From: Fibrobacter sp.
Lineage (GTDB): Bacteria > Fibrobacterota > Fibrobacteria > Fibrobacterales > Fibrobacteraceae
DNA: 64,000 nt
Assembly (NCBI GenBank): GCA_024398995.1
Contig: JAKSIE010000005.1
Coordinates: 1 to 64,000, forward strand
Direction: 5' to 3'
Below are positions 12,188-23,000 of this stretch, piece by piece. Position numbers and translations under genes: made by a program. The stretch's first letter is position 1. Every line of letters begins with the position of its first letter. Under the pieces are notes generated by a model, which was not told where the DNA came from, ran no database searches, and saw only the letters and a program-made list of their open reading frames with translations.

Positions 12188-12913
12188 ATGAAGATTGTTT
12201 TGGGCAAAAAAATCCAAAAAAACGCAAAAGTGCTCTTCAAGGCGATGGCAGTTCTAGCTGTGGCCTGTCTTTGTGCTTGTGTAGAGGATGACGTTGCCCG
12301 CGGAAACAAGGCTCTTCGTATTGGGGACTACAACCGAGCCATCGTAAACTTCAACAAGGCTCTGGATCAGGATCCGGCACATCGCGATGCCCGTTATGGT
12401 CTTGCCCTTTCGTACTACGCCCTTGCCGAAAGCGAAGAGCGCTTGAATGTTTCCTCCTTTGACTTGTGGGAACGTGCTTCCCGTGAATTTGATATTCTGT
12501 CTAAGGTGGATAGCAGTGGTCAAATTGATGCCAACTATTCTACTTGCTTGTTCTACTTGGCCCGCGCTATGATGCAGGCCGGCAACAGTGATGTGCTCTC
12601 CATGCTGGACAAGTCCATCCGGCTGGATAGCCTGAACTTCTTTAGCTATAACCTAAAGGCCCTGCTGCTTGCGGGCCTGGGCCGTTCCGACGATGCCAAG
12701 AACATTTTCGTCTACATTGTGACCAAGGAACCGAAGTTCAGTTCGGCTTACTTGAACCTGGGCAATATTTACTGGGGCGAAGGCGATATCGAATCTGCAT
12801 GGGACATATGGTCCATGGGTCATGAGGCTCTGCCTAAGGATGCCGCGTTGGAACATTGGACCAAGGTGGCTGAAGATTCTCTAAAGGCAAAAGTTCTATC
12901 GGAAGGCTTATGA
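12188..12913 (+). CDS. TPR lipoprotein
   Basis: 241 residues. The signal peptide ends in LCAC, so Cys31 would be lipidated. Tetratricopeptide repeats follow (about 35-70 NKALRIGDYNRAIVNFNKAL, 130-165, and 185-225 with SAYLNLGNIYWGEGD). TPR lipoproteins act as scaffolds in envelope complexes. Its stop overlaps the start of the kinase gene by four bases (12910-12913), so the two are made together. This makes it the probable extracytoplasmic partner of the kinase. The start has no good ribosome-binding site. Confidence 0.85.
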   Translation: MKIVLGKKIQKNAKVLFKAMAVLAVACLCACVEDDVARGNKALRIGDYNRAIVNFNKALDQDPAHRDARYGLALSYYALAESEERLNVSSFDLWERASREFDILSKVDSSGQIDANYSTCLFYLARAMMQAGNSDVLSMLDKSIRLDSLNFFSYNLKALLLAGLGRSDDAKNIFVYIVTKEPKFSSAYLNLGNIYWGEGDIESAWDIWSMGHEALPKDAALEHWTKVAEDSLKAKVLSEGL

Positions 12914-14082
12914 GCCGTAGCACCGTCAGTTCCAACTCGTTCCTTGACATTGCCGAGGACTGCTGCCTTCTTCACTCTGGTGGAGAGGCCGATGTGTACA
13001 AGGTTTCCGTTTCGGGTAAGGACTGCGTCTTAAAGTGGTACAAGTCCGGCTGCTCCTTTGATGCTGCTGTTCTGGATGTTGTAGCCAAGTCCCGTAATTG
13101 CGGGCATTACCAGTTGCGCGAGTATGGAACCCGAAAGGGAAAGTCTGGTGATACGCCTTATCTTCTTTACGATTTTATTGAAGGTATTGCGTCGGATCAA
13201 TTCCAGAAGTTGTCGGTCCTTGTGGCGCTCTACTCTTTACGCCGTCTGGTTTCTACGCTTTCGGACCTGAGAAAAATTCAGGTTTCCCACGGGGATTTGG
13301 CGCCCTCCAATATTGTGTTTGCGGTGGCAGAATCCAAGACATCCAAAGACCTGCAGCCAGTGGTCATTGACTTTGGCATCGTGGGGCCGGGCGCCTTAGC
13401 CTACGCCGCTCCCGAACGATTCCAAGGCCAGGCTCCTTCCGAAAAAAGCGACCTGTTCAGCCTTGGTCTTTTGCTGTACCGCTGGATTGCCGGCACGAAC
13501 TTGATTGCCGCCAAGGATTTCGAGGAATATGCCGCTGCGAGTTCCTCCATCGACTGCTCCAAGGTGTCCGAAGCGTTGTATGTAAGTGGGGGCTTTTCCG
13601 CCCAGGAATTGAGTGCCTTGGAACCTCTTTGGTCAGGCTTGCTCAACGCCGATCCCGAAGACCGTTTGGAGGACTTTGACGAACTGGACGAACTTTTGGA
13701 AATTGCGCTGGATAAAATTTCCGGTGGCCAGGTATCCTTGGTGGCACAGTTGCAAAAGTTCGTTGCCCAGTTGGAACAGGAAAAATTGGGAGAAATCGTT
13801 CCGACTCCAGAAAAGTGTGAACTGCCTTACAGACTTTTGGGCCAGCCGAAGAAATTGGGATTAGGCAAAATCTTTGTTTTTGCGTTTTTTGGACTTATAT
13901 TGTTGATTGTAGCCCTGTGGTTTGCCGTTGGTTCTAAAGGAACTGATATCGATGCCATGGGAGCCATGCTATTGAAACAGTCGAGAAGCCTGGAAATGGA
14001 TTCGGTCGGAGCCACTCCCGCAGAGGATGTGCCGATGGATGAGATTCTCCAGGATCTTCCTGTACCGGTTTCTGGTAACTAA
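12910..14082 (+). CDS. Membrane-anchored Ser/Thr protein kinase (PknB-like)
   Basis: 390 residues. The kinase domain spans about 18-275, with glycine loop SGGEADVYKV (24-29), ATP-site Lys42, catalytic loop HGDLAPSN (Asp129, Asn134), DFG at 154-156, and APE-like AYAAPERF. The HRD arginine is Gly and the usual Lys after Asp-Leu is Ala, as in some tyrosine kinases and sugar kinases; the essential Lys, Asp, Asn and DFG residues are intact. After a linker, one TM helix (about 320-341) precedes a short periplasmic tail of about 45 residues. The gene sits between a TPR lipoprotein (4-base overlap) and a sigma-54 activator (8-bp gap), so it probably signals envelope state to that activator. Confidence 0.88.
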   Translation: MSRSTVSSNSFLDIAEDCCLLHSGGEADVYKVSVSGKDCVLKWYKSGCSFDAAVLDVVAKSRNCGHYQLREYGTRKGKSGDTPYLLYDFIEGIASDQFQKLSVLVALYSLRRLVSTLSDLRKIQVSHGDLAPSNIVFAVAESKTSKDLQPVVIDFGIVGPGALAYAAPERFQGQAPSEKSDLFSLGLLLYRWIAGTNLIAAKDFEEYAAASSSIDCSKVSEALYVSGGFSAQELSALEPLWSGLLNADPEDRLEDFDELDELLEIALDKISGGQVSLVAQLQKFVAQLEQEKLGEIVPTPEKCELPYRLLGQPKKLGLGKIFVFAFFGLILLIVALWFAVGSKGTDIDAMGAMLLKQSRSLEMDSVGATPAEDVPMDEILQDLPVPVSGN

Positions 14083-14090
14083 GATTTTGA

Positions 14091-15557
14091 ATGAGGTCGC
14101 TCTTGAAAACTGAATCTATGATCGCCACAGAAAAGATGTTGGATGTGGTAAAGATTCTTCTTGACGAAGATCAGCCGGGAACCCTGTTTCCGAAGATTCT
14201 TGAAGTTGCCAAGAGCGTTCTCCGTGCAGATGCTGCCGTCTTGGATATTGCCGGCGACAGCCAGTTGCATTTGAGCAATCCTGAACAGGTTGCTATTTCT
14301 ATTTCCGCAGTAAAGCAGGCCAAGTCCGAGAACAGGGCTGTTATCTGGAACCAGGTGGACGACGATTCCGTTGACCTTTCCAAGTCCATTGTTCAGAACC
14401 AGCTGACAAGCATTATGGTTTCTCCCTTCAGAACCAAGGATTCTGAATCCGGCTACCTGTATTTGCAACGTGCCGCCCGCGAAGAGCCCTTTACTGCCGA
14501 GGATGTTGAGCTTTTTGATTCCTTTGTGGCTGTGTGCGAAAAGTTCGCCATTGCCGCTTCGGACCGCTTTCGTGACAGGCAGTCCCTGGACGTGCTTAAA
14601 AATGTTGTCCGCAAGGATGGTGTGGTATATTCTTCTAATGTCATGGCGGAACTGGTGGCCTTGGCCGACAGGCTTGCCCCGCTGCCTATGCCTGTGATTA
14701 TCCGTGGCGAAACCGGTACAGGCAAGGAAGTATTTGCAAAGTACATCCACAAGCACAGCCCCCGCGCAGACAAGCCTTTTGTTGCTGTGAACTGCGGCGC
14801 CATTCCCGAGAACCTGATGGAATCCCTTTTGTTTGGCCATGCCAAGGGTTCTTTTACTGGGGCAATCGATAACCGTAAGGGCTTTTTTGAAGAGGCTGAC
14901 GGTGGTACCATTTTCCTGGATGAGATTGGCGAACTGCCTATGAACATGCAGGTGAAGCTTTTGCGTGTTTTGCAGGAAAAGCACATTACCCGTGTGGGCG
15001 ACAACCGCGAGATTCCTGTCAACGTCCGAGTGATTTCTGCAACCCATGTGGACCTGGAAGAAGCCGTTAAGGAAAAGCGCTTTAGAGAAGACTTGTACTT
15101 TAGACTGCAAGTGATGCCTATGGTGCTGCCGGCCCTGAGAGAACGTGGTCAGGATGTTGTTCTGCTTGCCGAGGAATTCTTGACCAGGTATGGAGCGGAA
15201 TATGGCCGAGGCAAGTGCCATATGAGTCGCAATGCTGAAAAGGCCCTGCTTGGCTATCATTGGCCGGGCAACGTCCGCGAACTTGAAAACAAAATCCAGA
15301 AGGCTTTGATCCTGGCTGTTCATGGAGTCATCCAGCCGGAAGACCTGGGGCTGGGCGATTTGCAGAGCCGAGCCAAGGAATCTCCCAGGACTCTGAAGGA
15401 AGCCCGCGAAGCCGTGGAACGCGAAGTGATTGGTCGCGCCTTGAAGGACAGTAACGCCAACTTGACGTTGGCTGCAACCATTCTGGGCATTGACCGCAAG
15501 GTTCTCCGTGAGATTATGGAACGCCTTGAAATGAAAAAGGAAGATTTTAAAAACTAG
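14091..15557 (+). CDS. Sigma-54-dependent transcriptional activator, GAF-AAA+-Fis type
   Basis: 488 residues. An N-terminal GAF-like sensor (about 10-160) has no receiver Asp. The AAA+ domain (about 185-415) has Walker A GETGTGKE (about 206), the sigma-54 contact loop GSFTGA (about 253; canonical GAFTGA with Ala to Ser), Walker B IFLDEIGE (about 274) and the arginine finger region FREDLYFRL. A Fis-type helix-turn-helix follows (about 450-485, NLTLAATILGIDRKVLREIME). It should remodel closed RNA polymerase-sigma-54 complexes. The next gene downstream has a sigma-54 promoter, its most likely target. Absence of a receiver domain fits control by the adjacent Ser/Thr kinase or by a GAF ligand. Confidence 0.93.
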   Translation: MRSLLKTESMIATEKMLDVVKILLDEDQPGTLFPKILEVAKSVLRADAAVLDIAGDSQLHLSNPEQVAISISAVKQAKSENRAVIWNQVDDDSVDLSKSIVQNQLTSIMVSPFRTKDSESGYLYLQRAAREEPFTAEDVELFDSFVAVCEKFAIAASDRFRDRQSLDVLKNVVRKDGVVYSSNVMAELVALADRLAPLPMPVIIRGETGTGKEVFAKYIHKHSPRADKPFVAVNCGAIPENLMESLLFGHAKGSFTGAIDNRKGFFEEADGGTIFLDEIGELPMNMQVKLLRVLQEKHITRVGDNREIPVNVRVISATHVDLEEAVKEKRFREDLYFRLQVMPMVLPALRERGQDVVLLAEEFLTRYGAEYGRGKCHMSRNAEKALLGYHWPGNVRELENKIQKALILAVHGVIQPEDLGLGDLQSRAKESPRTLKEAREAVEREVIGRALKDSNANLTLAATILGIDRKVLREIMERLEMKKEDFKN

Positions 15558-15634: not shown

Positions 15635-15648
15635 GGAACCTAGGTTCC
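15635..15648. promoter_or_regulatory. 14-bp palindrome GGAACCTAGGTTCC, candidate activator site
   Basis: It is perfectly self-complementary and centred about 132 bp upstream of the predicted sigma-54 transcription start. That is within the usual -80 to -150 range for enhancer-like sites of sigma-54 activators. No T-run follows, so it is not a terminator. Confidence 0.5.
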
Positions 15649-15706
15649 CGAAAAAATATACCCGGATTAAGGTTGTTTTTTTATATTAAATGAGAGAATA
15701 ACCGAA

Positions 15707-15727
15707 ATTAGACGAAAAACGTCTAAT
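15707..15727. promoter_or_regulatory. Inverted repeat ATTAGACG-N5-CGTCTAAT
   Basis: Perfect 8-bp arms with a five-base A spacer, centred about 57 bp upstream of the predicted start. It could be a proximal activator site or a site for a second factor. No T-tract follows. Confidence 0.5.
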
Positions 15728-15746: not shown

Positions 15747-15763
15747 TTGGCACGGAATTTGCA
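15747..15763 (+). promoter_or_regulatory. Sigma-54 (-24/-12) promoter
   Basis: TTGGCACGGAATTTGCA matches the consensus TGGCACG-N4-TTGC(A/T) at every conserved position, with GG at 15749-15750 and GC at 15761-15762 in correct spacing. Transcription should begin near 15774. Confidence 0.9.
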
Positions 15764-15775
15764 AAAACTGAAGGC

Positions 15776-16198
15776 ATGAAGACAAAAATGAGAAATATTG
15801 GTTTAGTGTCCATTTTCTTGATGATGACGGCAACTGCGTTTGCCGGCGAGTCTTCTTTGCGTCCGGAGTCTTCTATCCCGACCCCTGCCGAAAAGTCTGG
15901 AATTTCTCAGGAAACTCCTACCTTAGGTGCAAAGGAAAGTGAAGATTGGAAGAAACTTCGTGAAGAACGTCGCCAGGCCCGTGAACAGATTTTGTCGGAC
16001 CTGCGTGCAAGTTCTGCTGCCGAAAAGCAGTCTATCCGTCAGGAAGTCTCGAATAAACCACGCTTCGAAGGGGAAATCCCCAACAATTCTCGCGAACGTC
16101 GCCCCAATGCTGAAGATAAGAATCAGCAACCCACTGGCCCGTGGCGAGATCCTCACTTCGGTCCTCATATTCCTCCTGGGGATCCGTTTTTCCGCTAA
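15776..16198 (+). CDS. Small secreted protein under sigma-54 control
   Basis: 140 residues: signal peptide (about 1-23, ending TAFA), a Ser/Pro-rich segment, a charged coiled-coil-like stretch (about 55-90, EDWKKLREERRQAREQILSDL), and a Pro/His-rich C-terminus. No known family. The sigma-54 promoter predicts transcription start two bases before the ATG at 15776. Either the message is practically leaderless or translation begins at the ATG at 15788 (fifth codon, MRNIG), which keeps the signal peptide. Its stop touches the ATG of the next gene without a gap, so both form one unit. Confidence 0.75.
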   Translation: MKTKMRNIGLVSIFLMMTATAFAGESSLRPESSIPTPAEKSGISQETPTLGAKESEDWKKLREERRQAREQILSDLRASSAAEKQSIRQEVSNKPRFEGEIPNNSRERRPNAEDKNQQPTGPWRDPHFGPHIPPGDPFFR

Positions 16199-17663: not shown

Positions 17664-20600
17664 ATGACAAAGTCCATTGATATTCGCGACGCCCACGAGC
17701 ATAACCTGCGCCATGTTAGCCTGAATATTCCCCGTGATTCCATTGTGGTTGTTACCGGTGTCTCAGGTTCCGGTAAGAGCAGCCTTGCCTTCGATACTGT
17801 TTTCCAGGAAGGCCAGCGCCGCTTTGTGGAATCTCTTTCTGCCTATGCCCGCCAGTTCATTGGCCGCATGAAACATCCCGAGGTGGAAAGCGTTCGCGGT
17901 ATTTCTCCCACCATTAGCATTGATCAGAAGACGGTGAACCGCAATCCCCGCAGTACGGTGGGTACGGTGGTCGAAATTCTTGACCATTACCGTTTGCTGT
18001 TTGCCCGACTGGGTGTGCCTCATTGCCCGGAATGTGACCGCGTGATCCAGGCCCAGACGGTGGACCAGATTGTAGATAACCTTTACGCAGGCGATGGCGA
18101 AATCAATGGCGTGCCTCGTCAGGTGACGGTGATGGCGCCTATCGTGCAAGACCGCAAGGGCGAATACCGTAAGGAACTGGCGGAGCTTAAGGAAAATGGT
18201 TTTGTCCGTGCCCGTGTGGACGGCGAAATCTACCGCCTCGAAGACGTTCCGCCTCTGGTTCGTTACGAGAAACACACGATCGAGGCTGTTATTGACCGCT
18301 TGACTTTGGAACGTAAGAACATGAGTCGCCTTCGCGAAGCCTTGGAAGGGGCTTTGAAACTTACGGAAGGTAAGCTGGTAAGCTTTTTATTTGGCGACGG
18401 GGAATACCGCCTGCAGGGTACTTTGCTGGCATGCCCCAAGTGCGGCATTTCTATTCCGGAACTGGAACCTAGGTTCTTTAGCTTTAACGATCCCAAGGGA
18501 CGCTGCCCTGTATGCAAGGGCATGGGCGAATCCTGCGAATTTGACCTGGACCTGATTATTCCCGACAAGACGCTGTCCCTGAAGCAGGGCGCCTTGGCGG
18601 TGCAGAAAAAGGATACGGGAACTTTGCTGTTCAGCGACTATGGCTGGCGAAACCTGCGTGCCATTGCCTCCGAGATGAAGTTTACCATTGATACGCCTTG
18701 GAACAAACTGAAACCTGCCCAGCAGCACGCCGTTCTGTACGGCACACCCAGTGGTAGCGAACGGGGCGTCATTGATATTATCCAGGAACTGTGGGACATG
18801 TGGCACATTTTCCACTTCCGCAAGTTCATGCAGATTGGCGTTTGTCCGGAATGTAAGGGAACCCGCATTAACCGTACTGCCAACGCGGTAAAATTCCACG
18901 GTCATAACTTGACCGAAATGACGGAATGGTCCGTAGAGGAATCTGTGGATTTCTTTAACAAGCTGGACTTGAACGAAAAAGAACAGCGAATTGGTCGTGA
19001 AATCCTGAAGGAAATCCGAGGCCGACTGAGTTTTTTGAACGCGGTGGGACTTGGCTACTTGAATATTTCCCGAAAGGCTTCGACGTTGAGCGGCGGCGAG
19101 GCGCAGCGTATTCGCTTGGCTAGTGCAGTGGGCGCTGGGCTCCAGGGTGTGCTTTACGTTATGGACGAACCCAGCATCGGCTTGCATCCCCGTGATAACG
19201 ATAAGCTTTTGGGTATGCTGGAACATTTGCGCGCCCAGGGCAACAGCCTGATTGTGGTGGAGCACGACGAAGATACCATGCGTCATGCGGACTATGTCAT
19301 TGACGTGGGCCCTGGCGCAGGTGTTGAAGGCGGCGGCATTATTGCTGCGGGTACCGTGGAGCAGTTGGAAAAGAACAAGGATTCCCTGACTGGCGCTTAC
19401 CTGAGTGGTCGCAAGGCTATCGAGGTTCCGGCACAGCGAAAGAAGATTACAGCGGAAACTCCTAAAATCAAGATTTGCGGCGCTGCCGAAAACAATCTGA
19501 AGAACATTGATGTGGAGATTCCGCTGGATGGCGCCTTGACTGTTGTTACCGGTGTTTCCGGCTCCGGCAAGAGTACCTTGATAAACCAGATTCTCCGTCG
19601 CGAACTGGCTCGAGTCTTTTTCAATTCCGAAGAGCCGGTGGGCAAGTTCGACCATCTGGAAGGTCTTGAGAATATTGACAAGGTCATTGAAATCGACCAG
19701 ACGCCTATTGGCCGCACTCCCCGTAGCAATCCTGCCACGTACACAAAGATTTGGGACGATATCCGCGACCTGTTTGCTGCCATGGAAGAAAGTAAGATCC
19801 GTGGTTATACCAAGAGCCGTTTTAGCTTTAACGTAAAGGGCGGTCGATGCGATGCCTGTGAAGGTGCCGGCGTCAAGGAAATCGATATGCACATTTTGCC
19901 CAGTGTGCAGGTGACTTGCGAAGTTTGCAATGGCAAACGTTTCAATGACGCAACCCGCGAAGTCTACTTTAAGGGAAAGAATGTTTCAGAAATTCTGGAC
20001 ATGAGCATTAGCGAGGCTGCCGAATTCTTCAAGGACATTTCAAAGATTGCGCAGCCCTTGAACCTGCTTTGCGAAGTGGGCTTGGGTTACTTGACCTTGG
20101 GGCAGCCTTCTACGACCTTGAGCGGTGGCGAAGCTCAGCGAATTAAGATCGCGTCGGAATTGCGCAGGCCCGGTACCGGCAGGACCTTGTACTTGTTGGA
20201 CGAACCTACCACCGGCTTGCACTTTGAGGATATTCGCAAACTAATGGATTGCCTGAATCGTTTACGTTCCCTAGGTAACAGTATCGTTATCATCGAGCAT
20301 AATCTGGACGTTATCAAGTGCGCCGACTGGATTGTGGACCTGGGCCCTGATGCGGGTGTTCACGGCGGTAAGGTTATTGCGGCTGGAACTCCGGAACAGA
20401 TTGCCAAGTGCAAGAAATCCGAAACTGGACGCTACCTGGCTCCAGTTCTTGCAAGAGCAAAGAACAACTACAAGCCCATAACCACCTTGATGGGTAACCT
20501 TGCAGAAAATAAGGCCCGCTACAACGCAATTTCTGCCCAGATGGCGGCGTCCATGAAAAAGAATAGCGATGGCCCGTCCCTGGATATTGAAGTTCGCGGC

Positions 20601-23000
20601 GCCCGCAAGCATAACCTGAAGAATATTGATGTCACCATTCCTCGCCATAAGCTGACGGTGGTGACTGGCGTTTCGGGCTCTGGTAAATCCAGCCTGGCGT
20701 TCCATACCCTGTTTAGCGAAGGCCAGAGGCGCTTTGTGGAAACCTTGAGCACCTACGCTCGCCGTTTCTTAGGCCGACCGGATCGTGGTAGCATTGATTC
20801 GATCTCTGGTCTTGCTCCGGCTATTGCCATTGACCAGAAGTCTGCCAGCAAGAGCCCCCGCAGTACCGTGGCGACCTTGACTGAAATTTACGACTACTTC
20901 AGAATTTTCTGGTCCCGTGTGGGTACGCCTCACTGCCTTCATTGCGGTAAGCCTGTGGATTCCTACGCAGCTGGCGACTTAATGCAGCTGGCCTTTGACC
21001 GCGATGCAGGCAAGATGGTGACGGTCCTTGCGCCTTTTGAGGTGAAAGACATCTTGAAGCTTTCCAAGATCCTGACGGAAAAGGGATACCGTAAGGTTTA
21101 CATGGGCGATAAGCTTGTGGACCTGCCGCTGCCCAAGGTGCCTACTCGCGAAAAGAAGGTGCTTGCCGTTGTGGACCAGGTTGTTGTGAAGGAAGAAAAT
21201 CGCGCTCGCCTGGTAGAAGCCTTTGAAAGAGGCTATCGCGACGGCAACGGAATACTCTATGTGGATTGCGAAGGTCAGGAACGACTTTCTGCCAGCGAAA
21301 AGCCGGGCTGCCCTGAATGCGGCTGGTACATGGACAGTGCCTTGAATCCAAAGCTGTTCAGCTTCAATACCCATTGGGGCGCCTGTGAAACTTGCCTTGG
21401 CCTAGGTGTCCTTAAGGATTCCAAGCGCGAATCGGGAAAGATTTGTCCGGCTTGCCACGGGGAACGCTTGAAGCCTGAGTATCTGGCAGTTCGAATTGGC
21501 GGAATGAACATTATGGATGTTCACCATATGAGTATTGACTCTGCCCGCGATTGGTTTGCCAATGTGTCTTTTGAAGGCGAAAAGAATGGGGTTGGTAAGG
21601 CCAAGATTGCAGAACCTCTGCTTCGCGAAATTATCGGCCGTTTGGATTTCTTGAAGAGCGTGGGCCTGGGCTACATCGGGCTGGATCGTTCCGGCGATAC
21701 TTTGAGCGGTGGCGAATCCCAACGAATTCGTTTGGCAAGCCAGATTGGTAGCGGCTTGGAAGGCGTGCTTTATGTTCTTGATGAACCTACGGTTGGCCTT
21801 CACGAAAGCGATACTGCAAAGCTTTTGGATACTTTGTATCGCCTTAGAGACTTGGGCAATACCCTTGTGGTGGTGGAACATGACATGAAGATGATGGAGG
21901 CGGCCGACCATATCATCGATATGGGCCCCGCCGCCGGTGAATTCGGCGGCGAGGTAGTAGCCGAAGGCTCCCCGGCCGCCTTGGCAAAGCCTTATGCACT
22001 TCAGCAATTCCCCCGCAGCGAAACGGTGAAGTTCCTGACCCGAAGTAATCCGATTGCAAATCAGATTGAGGCAAAGTCGATTACTGAAGACACTGAATTT
22101 TACGAGTTCAAGAACTTGTCGAAAAACAACTTGAAGAACATTTCCGTAAAGTTCCCAAAGGGTGCCATTAGCGTGGTTTGCGGAGTTTCCGGTTCGGGCA
22201 AGAGTTCCATGGTCATGGACGAAATCTATCCTGCCCTTAAGCGAAAGTTCCAGGCCCGCGGCAAAAAGAAACAGTCCGGCGAAGTTCTGCTGGTGGACCA
22301 GAGTCCTATTTCTGGAACTCCCCGTAGTACTCCTGCCAGCTTTACCGGAGTCTTTGATGACATTCGAAAGCTTTTTGCCAAGCTGGAACAATCTAAGATC
22401 AAGGGCTTTGACTATGGTCGTTTCAGCTACAACCTTGCCCGTGGCCGTTGTGCCGCTTGCGAAGGCCGTGGCGCCATCTCTGTAGAAATGCACTTCCTTT
22501 CTGATGTATGGGAAGTTTGTGAAGCCTGTGGTGGCAAACGCTATAATCAAGAGACTTTGTCTGTAACTTTCAAGGGTAAGAATATAGCCGATGTCCTGGA
22601 TATGCGTGTGGCTGAGGCCTGCGAATTCTTTAAGGATCAGCCAAAGATTTTGCCTAAGCTGGAAGCCCTCCGCGATGTGGGCCTGCCTTACGTAAAGCTT
22701 GGCCAACCGGTGACCACTTTAAGTGGCGGTGAAAACCAGCGCTTGAAACTTGCCGCAGAACTTGCCCGCAATAACGCCCCAGAAATGGTTTATCTCCTGG
22801 ATGAACCGACTACAGGCTTGCATCTGAAGGACATTCAGACCCTTTGGAACCAGTTGCGCAAACTATCTGCCCGTGGAAACACGGTGATTGTAATTGAACA
22901 TCACCCCGATATTATCCGATTGGCCGATTGGAAGGTGGAATTGGGCCCCGTTGGAGGCGGAAATGGTGGTCATTTATTGGAAATGGGCTGCAATAAGTAG
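17664..23000 (+). CDS. uvrA: Double-length UvrA, excinuclease ABC subunit A
   Basis: 1778 residues, about twice a standard UvrA (about 940), formed by two complete UvrA units in tandem with four ATPase domains. Walker A motifs lie at about 31, 629, 1001 and 1506 (all GVSGSGKS), ABC signatures at about 475, 819, 1347 and 1686 ([32 protein letters not shown]), and Walker B as DEPS/TxGLH in each. Zinc-finger cysteine clusters are kept in both halves. UvrA recognises bulky DNA damage as a dimer and loads UvrB; here one chain supplies both protomers. Similar fused UvrAs are known in Chlamydia. The halves have diverged clearly, so the duplication is old. Confidence 0.95.

Follow-up and report, generated by a model that had tools for sequence, protein, structure and literature searches.

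A conserved sigma-54 promoter in Fibrobacter predicted to drive a leaderless mRNA for envelope proteins

Transcription by sigma-54 polymerase is switched by an ATP-driven activator, and sigma-54 promoters lying beside activator genes are well known. Leaderless mRNAs are also known, and their translation proceeds by direct recognition of the 5'-terminal AUG. Fibrobacter is a major cellulose degrader, and little is known of its regulation. In Sinorhizobium meliloti, 171 leaderless mRNAs have been mapped (PMC3616915). A conserved combination of sigma-54 promoter and leaderless mRNA was not found in the literature searched, with subscription journals mostly outside its scope; both classes appear in published start maps, that of S. 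meliloti among them, where overlaps may exist. The main text of a study of predicted sigma-54 regulons across bacterial classes (PMC12316311) makes no mention of Fibrobacter or leaderless genes, and a literature search on Fibrobacter sigma-54, RpoN, leaderless mRNAs or mapped starts returned nothing pertinent.

We analysed a stretch of 64,000 nucleotides from a Fibrobacter sp. genome, referred to here as the window. Positions 15747-15763 of its forward strand read TTGGCACGGAATTTGCA. The GG at -24 and the GC at -12 are both present at the correct spacing (TGGCAC-N5-TTGC), and the consensus sigma-54 site claimed in the preliminary description was confirmed as an exact match and the sole full -24/-12 match in the window. 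The pattern TGGCAYRNNNNTTGCW occurred once in the 64 kb, compared with 0.06 matches expected by shuffling, and 5 of 100 shuffled windows held at least one match. Across the 2.8-Mb genome it was found 21 times, against 4 for the reversed control pattern. One-mismatch variants were no more frequent in the window than expected by chance, and the case therefore rests on the exact match together with its conservation. The features of the locus are collected in Table 1.

Table 1. Features of the sigma-54 locus in the window (positions are those of the window; a point marks features without a strand)
Feature	Position	Strand	Basis
TPR lipoprotein-like gene, first in the conserved cluster	12188..12913	+	TPR families; kept in genus loci read
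Protein kinase-like gene, C-terminal membrane segment (by eye)	12910..14082	+	Pkinase, E 9.9e-09
Sigma-54 activator gene, GAF-AAA+-Fis HTH, GSFTGA loop	14103..15557	+	Domain search
Palindrome GGAACCTAGGTTCC, candidate activator site, about -141 to -128	15635..15648	.	Near relatives only
Possible -10 box (TATATT) of another promoter, sigma-70-type	15682..15687	+	Kept upstream of the site
Dyad ATTAGACG-N5-CGTCTAAT	15707..15727	.	Arms change together in near relatives
Sigma-54 promoter, -24 TTGGCACG, -12 TTTGCA	15747..15763	+	Exact match and conservation
Start codon A, predicted as transcription start to within about 2 nt	15776	+	Initiator position, fixed ATG spacing
Small secreted protein gene, 140 aa	15776..16198	+	Signal peptide (by eye), conserved blocks
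Porin-like outer-membrane barrel protein gene, 426 aa	16199..17479	+	Predicted structure, structure matches

The machinery expected around such a promoter was present. The gene upstream had been called a sigma-54 activator, and its product indeed matched Sigma54_activat (E 2.9e-72) along with the AAA lid and HTH_8 families; it has a Fis-type HTH, a weak GAF domain and a GAFTGA-type loop reading GSFTGA. It ends at 15557, which places the site 190 bp beyond the stop, in agreement with the earlier estimate of about 190 bp. The reading frame opens at 14091, and orthologues begin at the position matching 14103. Recoding through an in-frame TGA in some activator genes was considered and rejected, as the TGA sits just before the true start. 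None of the named activator equivalogs (NtrC, NifA, NorR and others) was reached, the best score being 360.7 against a cut-off of 502.6. Among close relatives of the GAF domain, 48 of the 49 named loci were labelled Fibrobacter, Fibrobacteraceae or Fibrobacterales, and the sole exception was a metagenome bin labelled Clostridiales. By the preliminary description, a genome lacking rpoN would have refuted the promoter; the genome carries one complete copy. This single rpoN encodes 571 aa (Sigma54_DBD, E 1.9e-45), including the RpoN box ARRTVAKYRE and an N-terminal region of the activator-interacting type (both by eye). The kinase-like frame contains HGDL..N, DFG-type and APE motifs (by eye).

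Perfect -24/-12 sites were also seen upstream of genes at eight further loci of this genome (L012, L013, L015, L022, L021, L020, L019 and L005). These genes read, by eye, as dnaK, grpE, a clp ATPase, groES, glutamate synthase, dapF, icd and spoVG; sigma-54 control of heat-shock and housekeeping genes is possible in Fibrobacter. Tandem series of sites occur at L114 and L115 (G053:C94, C12); behind every site lies the hairpin sequence TGTCCGGGAAACTCCCGGACAAA in nearly identical form, with mostly short or no ORFs downstream.

The two genes behind the promoter both point to the cell envelope. The small protein matched no Pfam or NCBIfam family. Besides a signal peptide (by eye), it carries conserved RPESSVPTPAE and W.K.R.ERR.AREQIL blocks, and its structural model showed a confident helical hairpin at residues 50-93 and low confidence otherwise. 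The larger protein was modelled as a 14-stranded barrel with N-terminal helices (mean pLDDT 88.6). Among solved structures it came closest to two monomeric porins, CymA and OmpG (TM-scores about 0.4-0.57), so that the term porin-like denotes the fold only. In all 10 fully listed loci the genes run from the TPR lipoprotein through the kinase-like protein and the activator to the small secreted protein and the outer-membrane protein. In other families of the class a similar order recurs (by eye): a kinase-like frame comes first, then a relative of the activator, and a small secreted protein of a different kind follows. Three of these families carry AGGCGC-N5-TTGC at the matching place, and the leader in these counterpart loci is about 40 nt (both by eye). 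A second cluster with paralogues of the small secreted protein (L069, L071, L073, L078 and L079) was found in G001 and in species whose main locus has lost the site; the paralogues follow a longer gene of repeat type, which has a sigma-54 site with a leader. Downstream in the window, a 1778-aa ORF (17664-23000) contains two UvrA interaction domains and repeated ABC modules, and is apparently two UvrA proteins fused in one gene.

The arrangement was widely conserved. The activator was present in 53 of 61 Fibrobacter genomes, including 28 of the 29 good ones, and the orthologous set comprised 54 loci from 53 genomes. A -24/-12 site followed the activator in 40 of these loci. Of those 40, 36 have the next gene's ATG exactly 11 nt past the last promoter base. 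Between activator stop and site, by contrast, the distance was anything from 1 to 247 nt. Mean identity among the 28 different 11-nt spacers was only 47%, and the 11 nt preceding the site were 46% identical between loci, compared with 86% for the promoter 16-mer. In the window the spacing is 12 nt, one more than usual. At three loci, from three species belonging to one clade, the ATG lies 33-43 nt past the site. In 13 loci of another clade the site is lost, and an AGGAG-type Shine-Dalgarno sequence precedes an ATG about 46 nt past the activator; in one further locus without the site, 7 nt separate the activator stop from the ATG. A single change on the activator tree accounts for the Shine-Dalgarno state and another for the leadered sigma-54 state, and the 11-nt geometry is distributed over all other branches. 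Most related gut and rumen species appear, from these comparisons, to retain the unusual start-codon geometry. The linkage of the promoter to the adjoining activator gene is well supported by the genomic comparison. As for the local control proposed earlier, the conserved order of activator, promoter and gene (40/54 loci) and the presence of rpoN stood, and the action of this activator on this site is suggested by the linkage.

The fixed spacing can be read against the initiator of other sigma-54 sites in six Fibrobacter genomes, which were hand-picked among the matches listed and include orthologous promoters that are not independent. At spacer positions 10 and 11 of these sites, a pyrimidine occurred in 76% and a purine in 90% (G in 71%), and A-rich sequence (AAAA) followed the Y-G initiator. 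After removal of close duplicates and leaderless cases, Y-G stood at these positions in 31 of 46 sites, while no column exceeded 12 in 5000 shuffles. In the 11-nt loci, each of the 28 distinct spacers has T or C at the first of these positions and the ATG's A at the second, so the start codon occupies the predicted start position of the promoter. The pair is displaced by one base in the window (C 15775, A 15776). Because the ATG spacing is fixed and the initiator position shared, the start was predicted at 15776; transcription most likely begins at the A of the AUG and yields a leaderless mRNA. The earlier prediction of about 15774 was moved accordingly, the ATG at the predicted start having been overlooked. 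No consistent Shine-Dalgarno sequence preceded the ATG in the 28 spacers read; GGAG or AAGG is found in some of them, but 5' of the predicted start.

An 11-nt rule for all Fibrobacter sigma-54 sites was not upheld, with only a mild excess once orthologues were removed (counts of 6, 16, 14, 16, 8, 4 and 9 for spacings 8-14). A strict Y-R initiator might fix sigma-54 starts throughout the genus and so give activator-gated leaderless mRNAs, at one conserved envelope gene and at scattered candidates; we put this forward tentatively, at slightly less than even odds.

The promoter, the activator gene, rpoN, the gene order, the fixed distance from promoter to ATG and the initiator position are all seen in the sequence. 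From these we infer, with a probability of roughly three in four, that the sigma-54 promoter gives a leaderless mRNA for the small secreted and then the porin-like protein, under the activator encoded just upstream. The TPR lipoprotein and the membrane-anchored kinase would sense an envelope cue and, judging from gene order, might act on the GAF-AAA+-Fis activator. The activator would in turn remodel the sigma-54 polymerase held at the site, a pairing suggested by the conserved linkage. Transcription would initiate at the A of the ATG, and the ribosome would bind the 5'-terminal AUG directly. On this simplest reading, the proposed circuit would run from an envelope signal through kinase, activator and sigma-54 to two envelope outputs on a leaderless mRNA.

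Several intergenic elements bear on other readings. Palindromes and dyads were common to near relatives only, and no genus-wide conserved activator site was found; the palindrome in Table 1 is perfect only in the window and in G024. The dyad is a possible terminator, RNA hairpin or binding site. Wherever activator and site lie 30 nt or more apart (30 loci), TATATT was present 5' of the sigma-54 site without exception, compared with 3.3 expected, so transcription may also begin at a second start of sigma-70 type and yield an mRNA with a leader. As a general promoter mark in the window, TATATT was uninformative (8 of 27 upstream regions, against 6 for its reverse complement). Main transcription could then come from this upstream promoter with a leader of about 80 nt that includes the dyad, leaving sigma-54 as a second, conditional start. 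The 30 loci and the covarying dyad between TATATT and the site speak for such an arrangement. However, no -35 box was seen by eye, loci with a gap of 1-2 nt leave no intergenic room for TATATT, and the strict 11-nt spacing past the sigma-54 site and the missing Shine-Dalgarno sequence would go unexplained. We consider it unlikely as the main source of transcript, although the two starts can coexist.

The remaining alternatives keep the site and question the leaderless start, or question the site itself. Translation might begin at a second in-frame Met, which the window (at 15788) and its nearest relatives carry 12 nt further on; the sigma-54 transcript would then have a normal short leader of about 13 nt. 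Most species lack this Met and depend on the ATG at 11 nt for their signal peptides, making this reading improbable. The fixed spacing might instead be coding, with an N-terminal extension that reads through the motif: the 27 nt from the start of the site to the ATG are nine codons in frame, and one clade has an upstream in-frame ATG. Yet an in-frame stop precedes any upstream start in 20 of the 40 loci, which already refutes this explanation for half of them; in two loci the spacer itself contains a stop, and with its 12 nt the window is off frame by one base. This reading is highly improbable. Equally little weight falls on a chance match to the consensus, with which the level of one-mismatch variants in the window would agree, but which is refuted by the conservation of the motif over flanks of 46-47% identity. 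The leaderless sigma-54 transcript remains the preferred reading.

Ordinary promoters in this genome lend support to the leaderless reading, as leaderless genes may also lie behind them. TATATT-N1..14-ATG occurred 334 times, compared with 104 for the control. In the 100 listed of these 334 cases, the spacing from TATATT to ATG peaked at 6-7 nt, and at that spacing a pyrimidine preceded the ATG in 34 of 38. This peak with its pyrimidine is the signature predicted for leaderless genes behind -10 boxes, and suggests that such genes are common behind sigma-70-type promoters in Fibrobacter. TATATT lies 6-7 nt before the ATG at 17664 (uvrA), 4413 and 34513 of the window, and also genome-wide. In the class Fibrobacteria, a published survey found Shine-Dalgarno sequences at 37% of genes (PMC10783764).

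A natural coupling of sigma-54 with a leaderless start would make selection for such a start testable, and contrast clades are at hand: one sister swapped in a Shine-Dalgarno sequence, and another a leadered sigma-54 promoter. Fibrobacter would also gain a concrete, proposed circuit from kinase through activator to envelope. Chaperone and envelope genes are among the predicted targets in sigma-54 regulons across bacterial classes (PMC12316311) as well. Like bacterial leaderless mRNAs such as those of S. meliloti (PMC3616915), the Fibrobacter transcript has a predicted 5'-terminal AUG, no Shine-Dalgarno sequence and a pyrimidine before the A; those are mapped, whereas the present case is predicted, lies behind sigma-54 and is conserved across most of the genus. 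The locus resembles classical -24/-12 promoters beside an NtrC-, PspF- or NifA-type activator in its consensus, spacing, rpoN, AAA+ activator and GAFTGA-type loop. It differs from those systems in that its ATG occupies the predicted start position, its output genes encode a secreted protein and a barrel, neither assigned to a named family, and its activator is linked to a kinase and a TPR lipoprotein.
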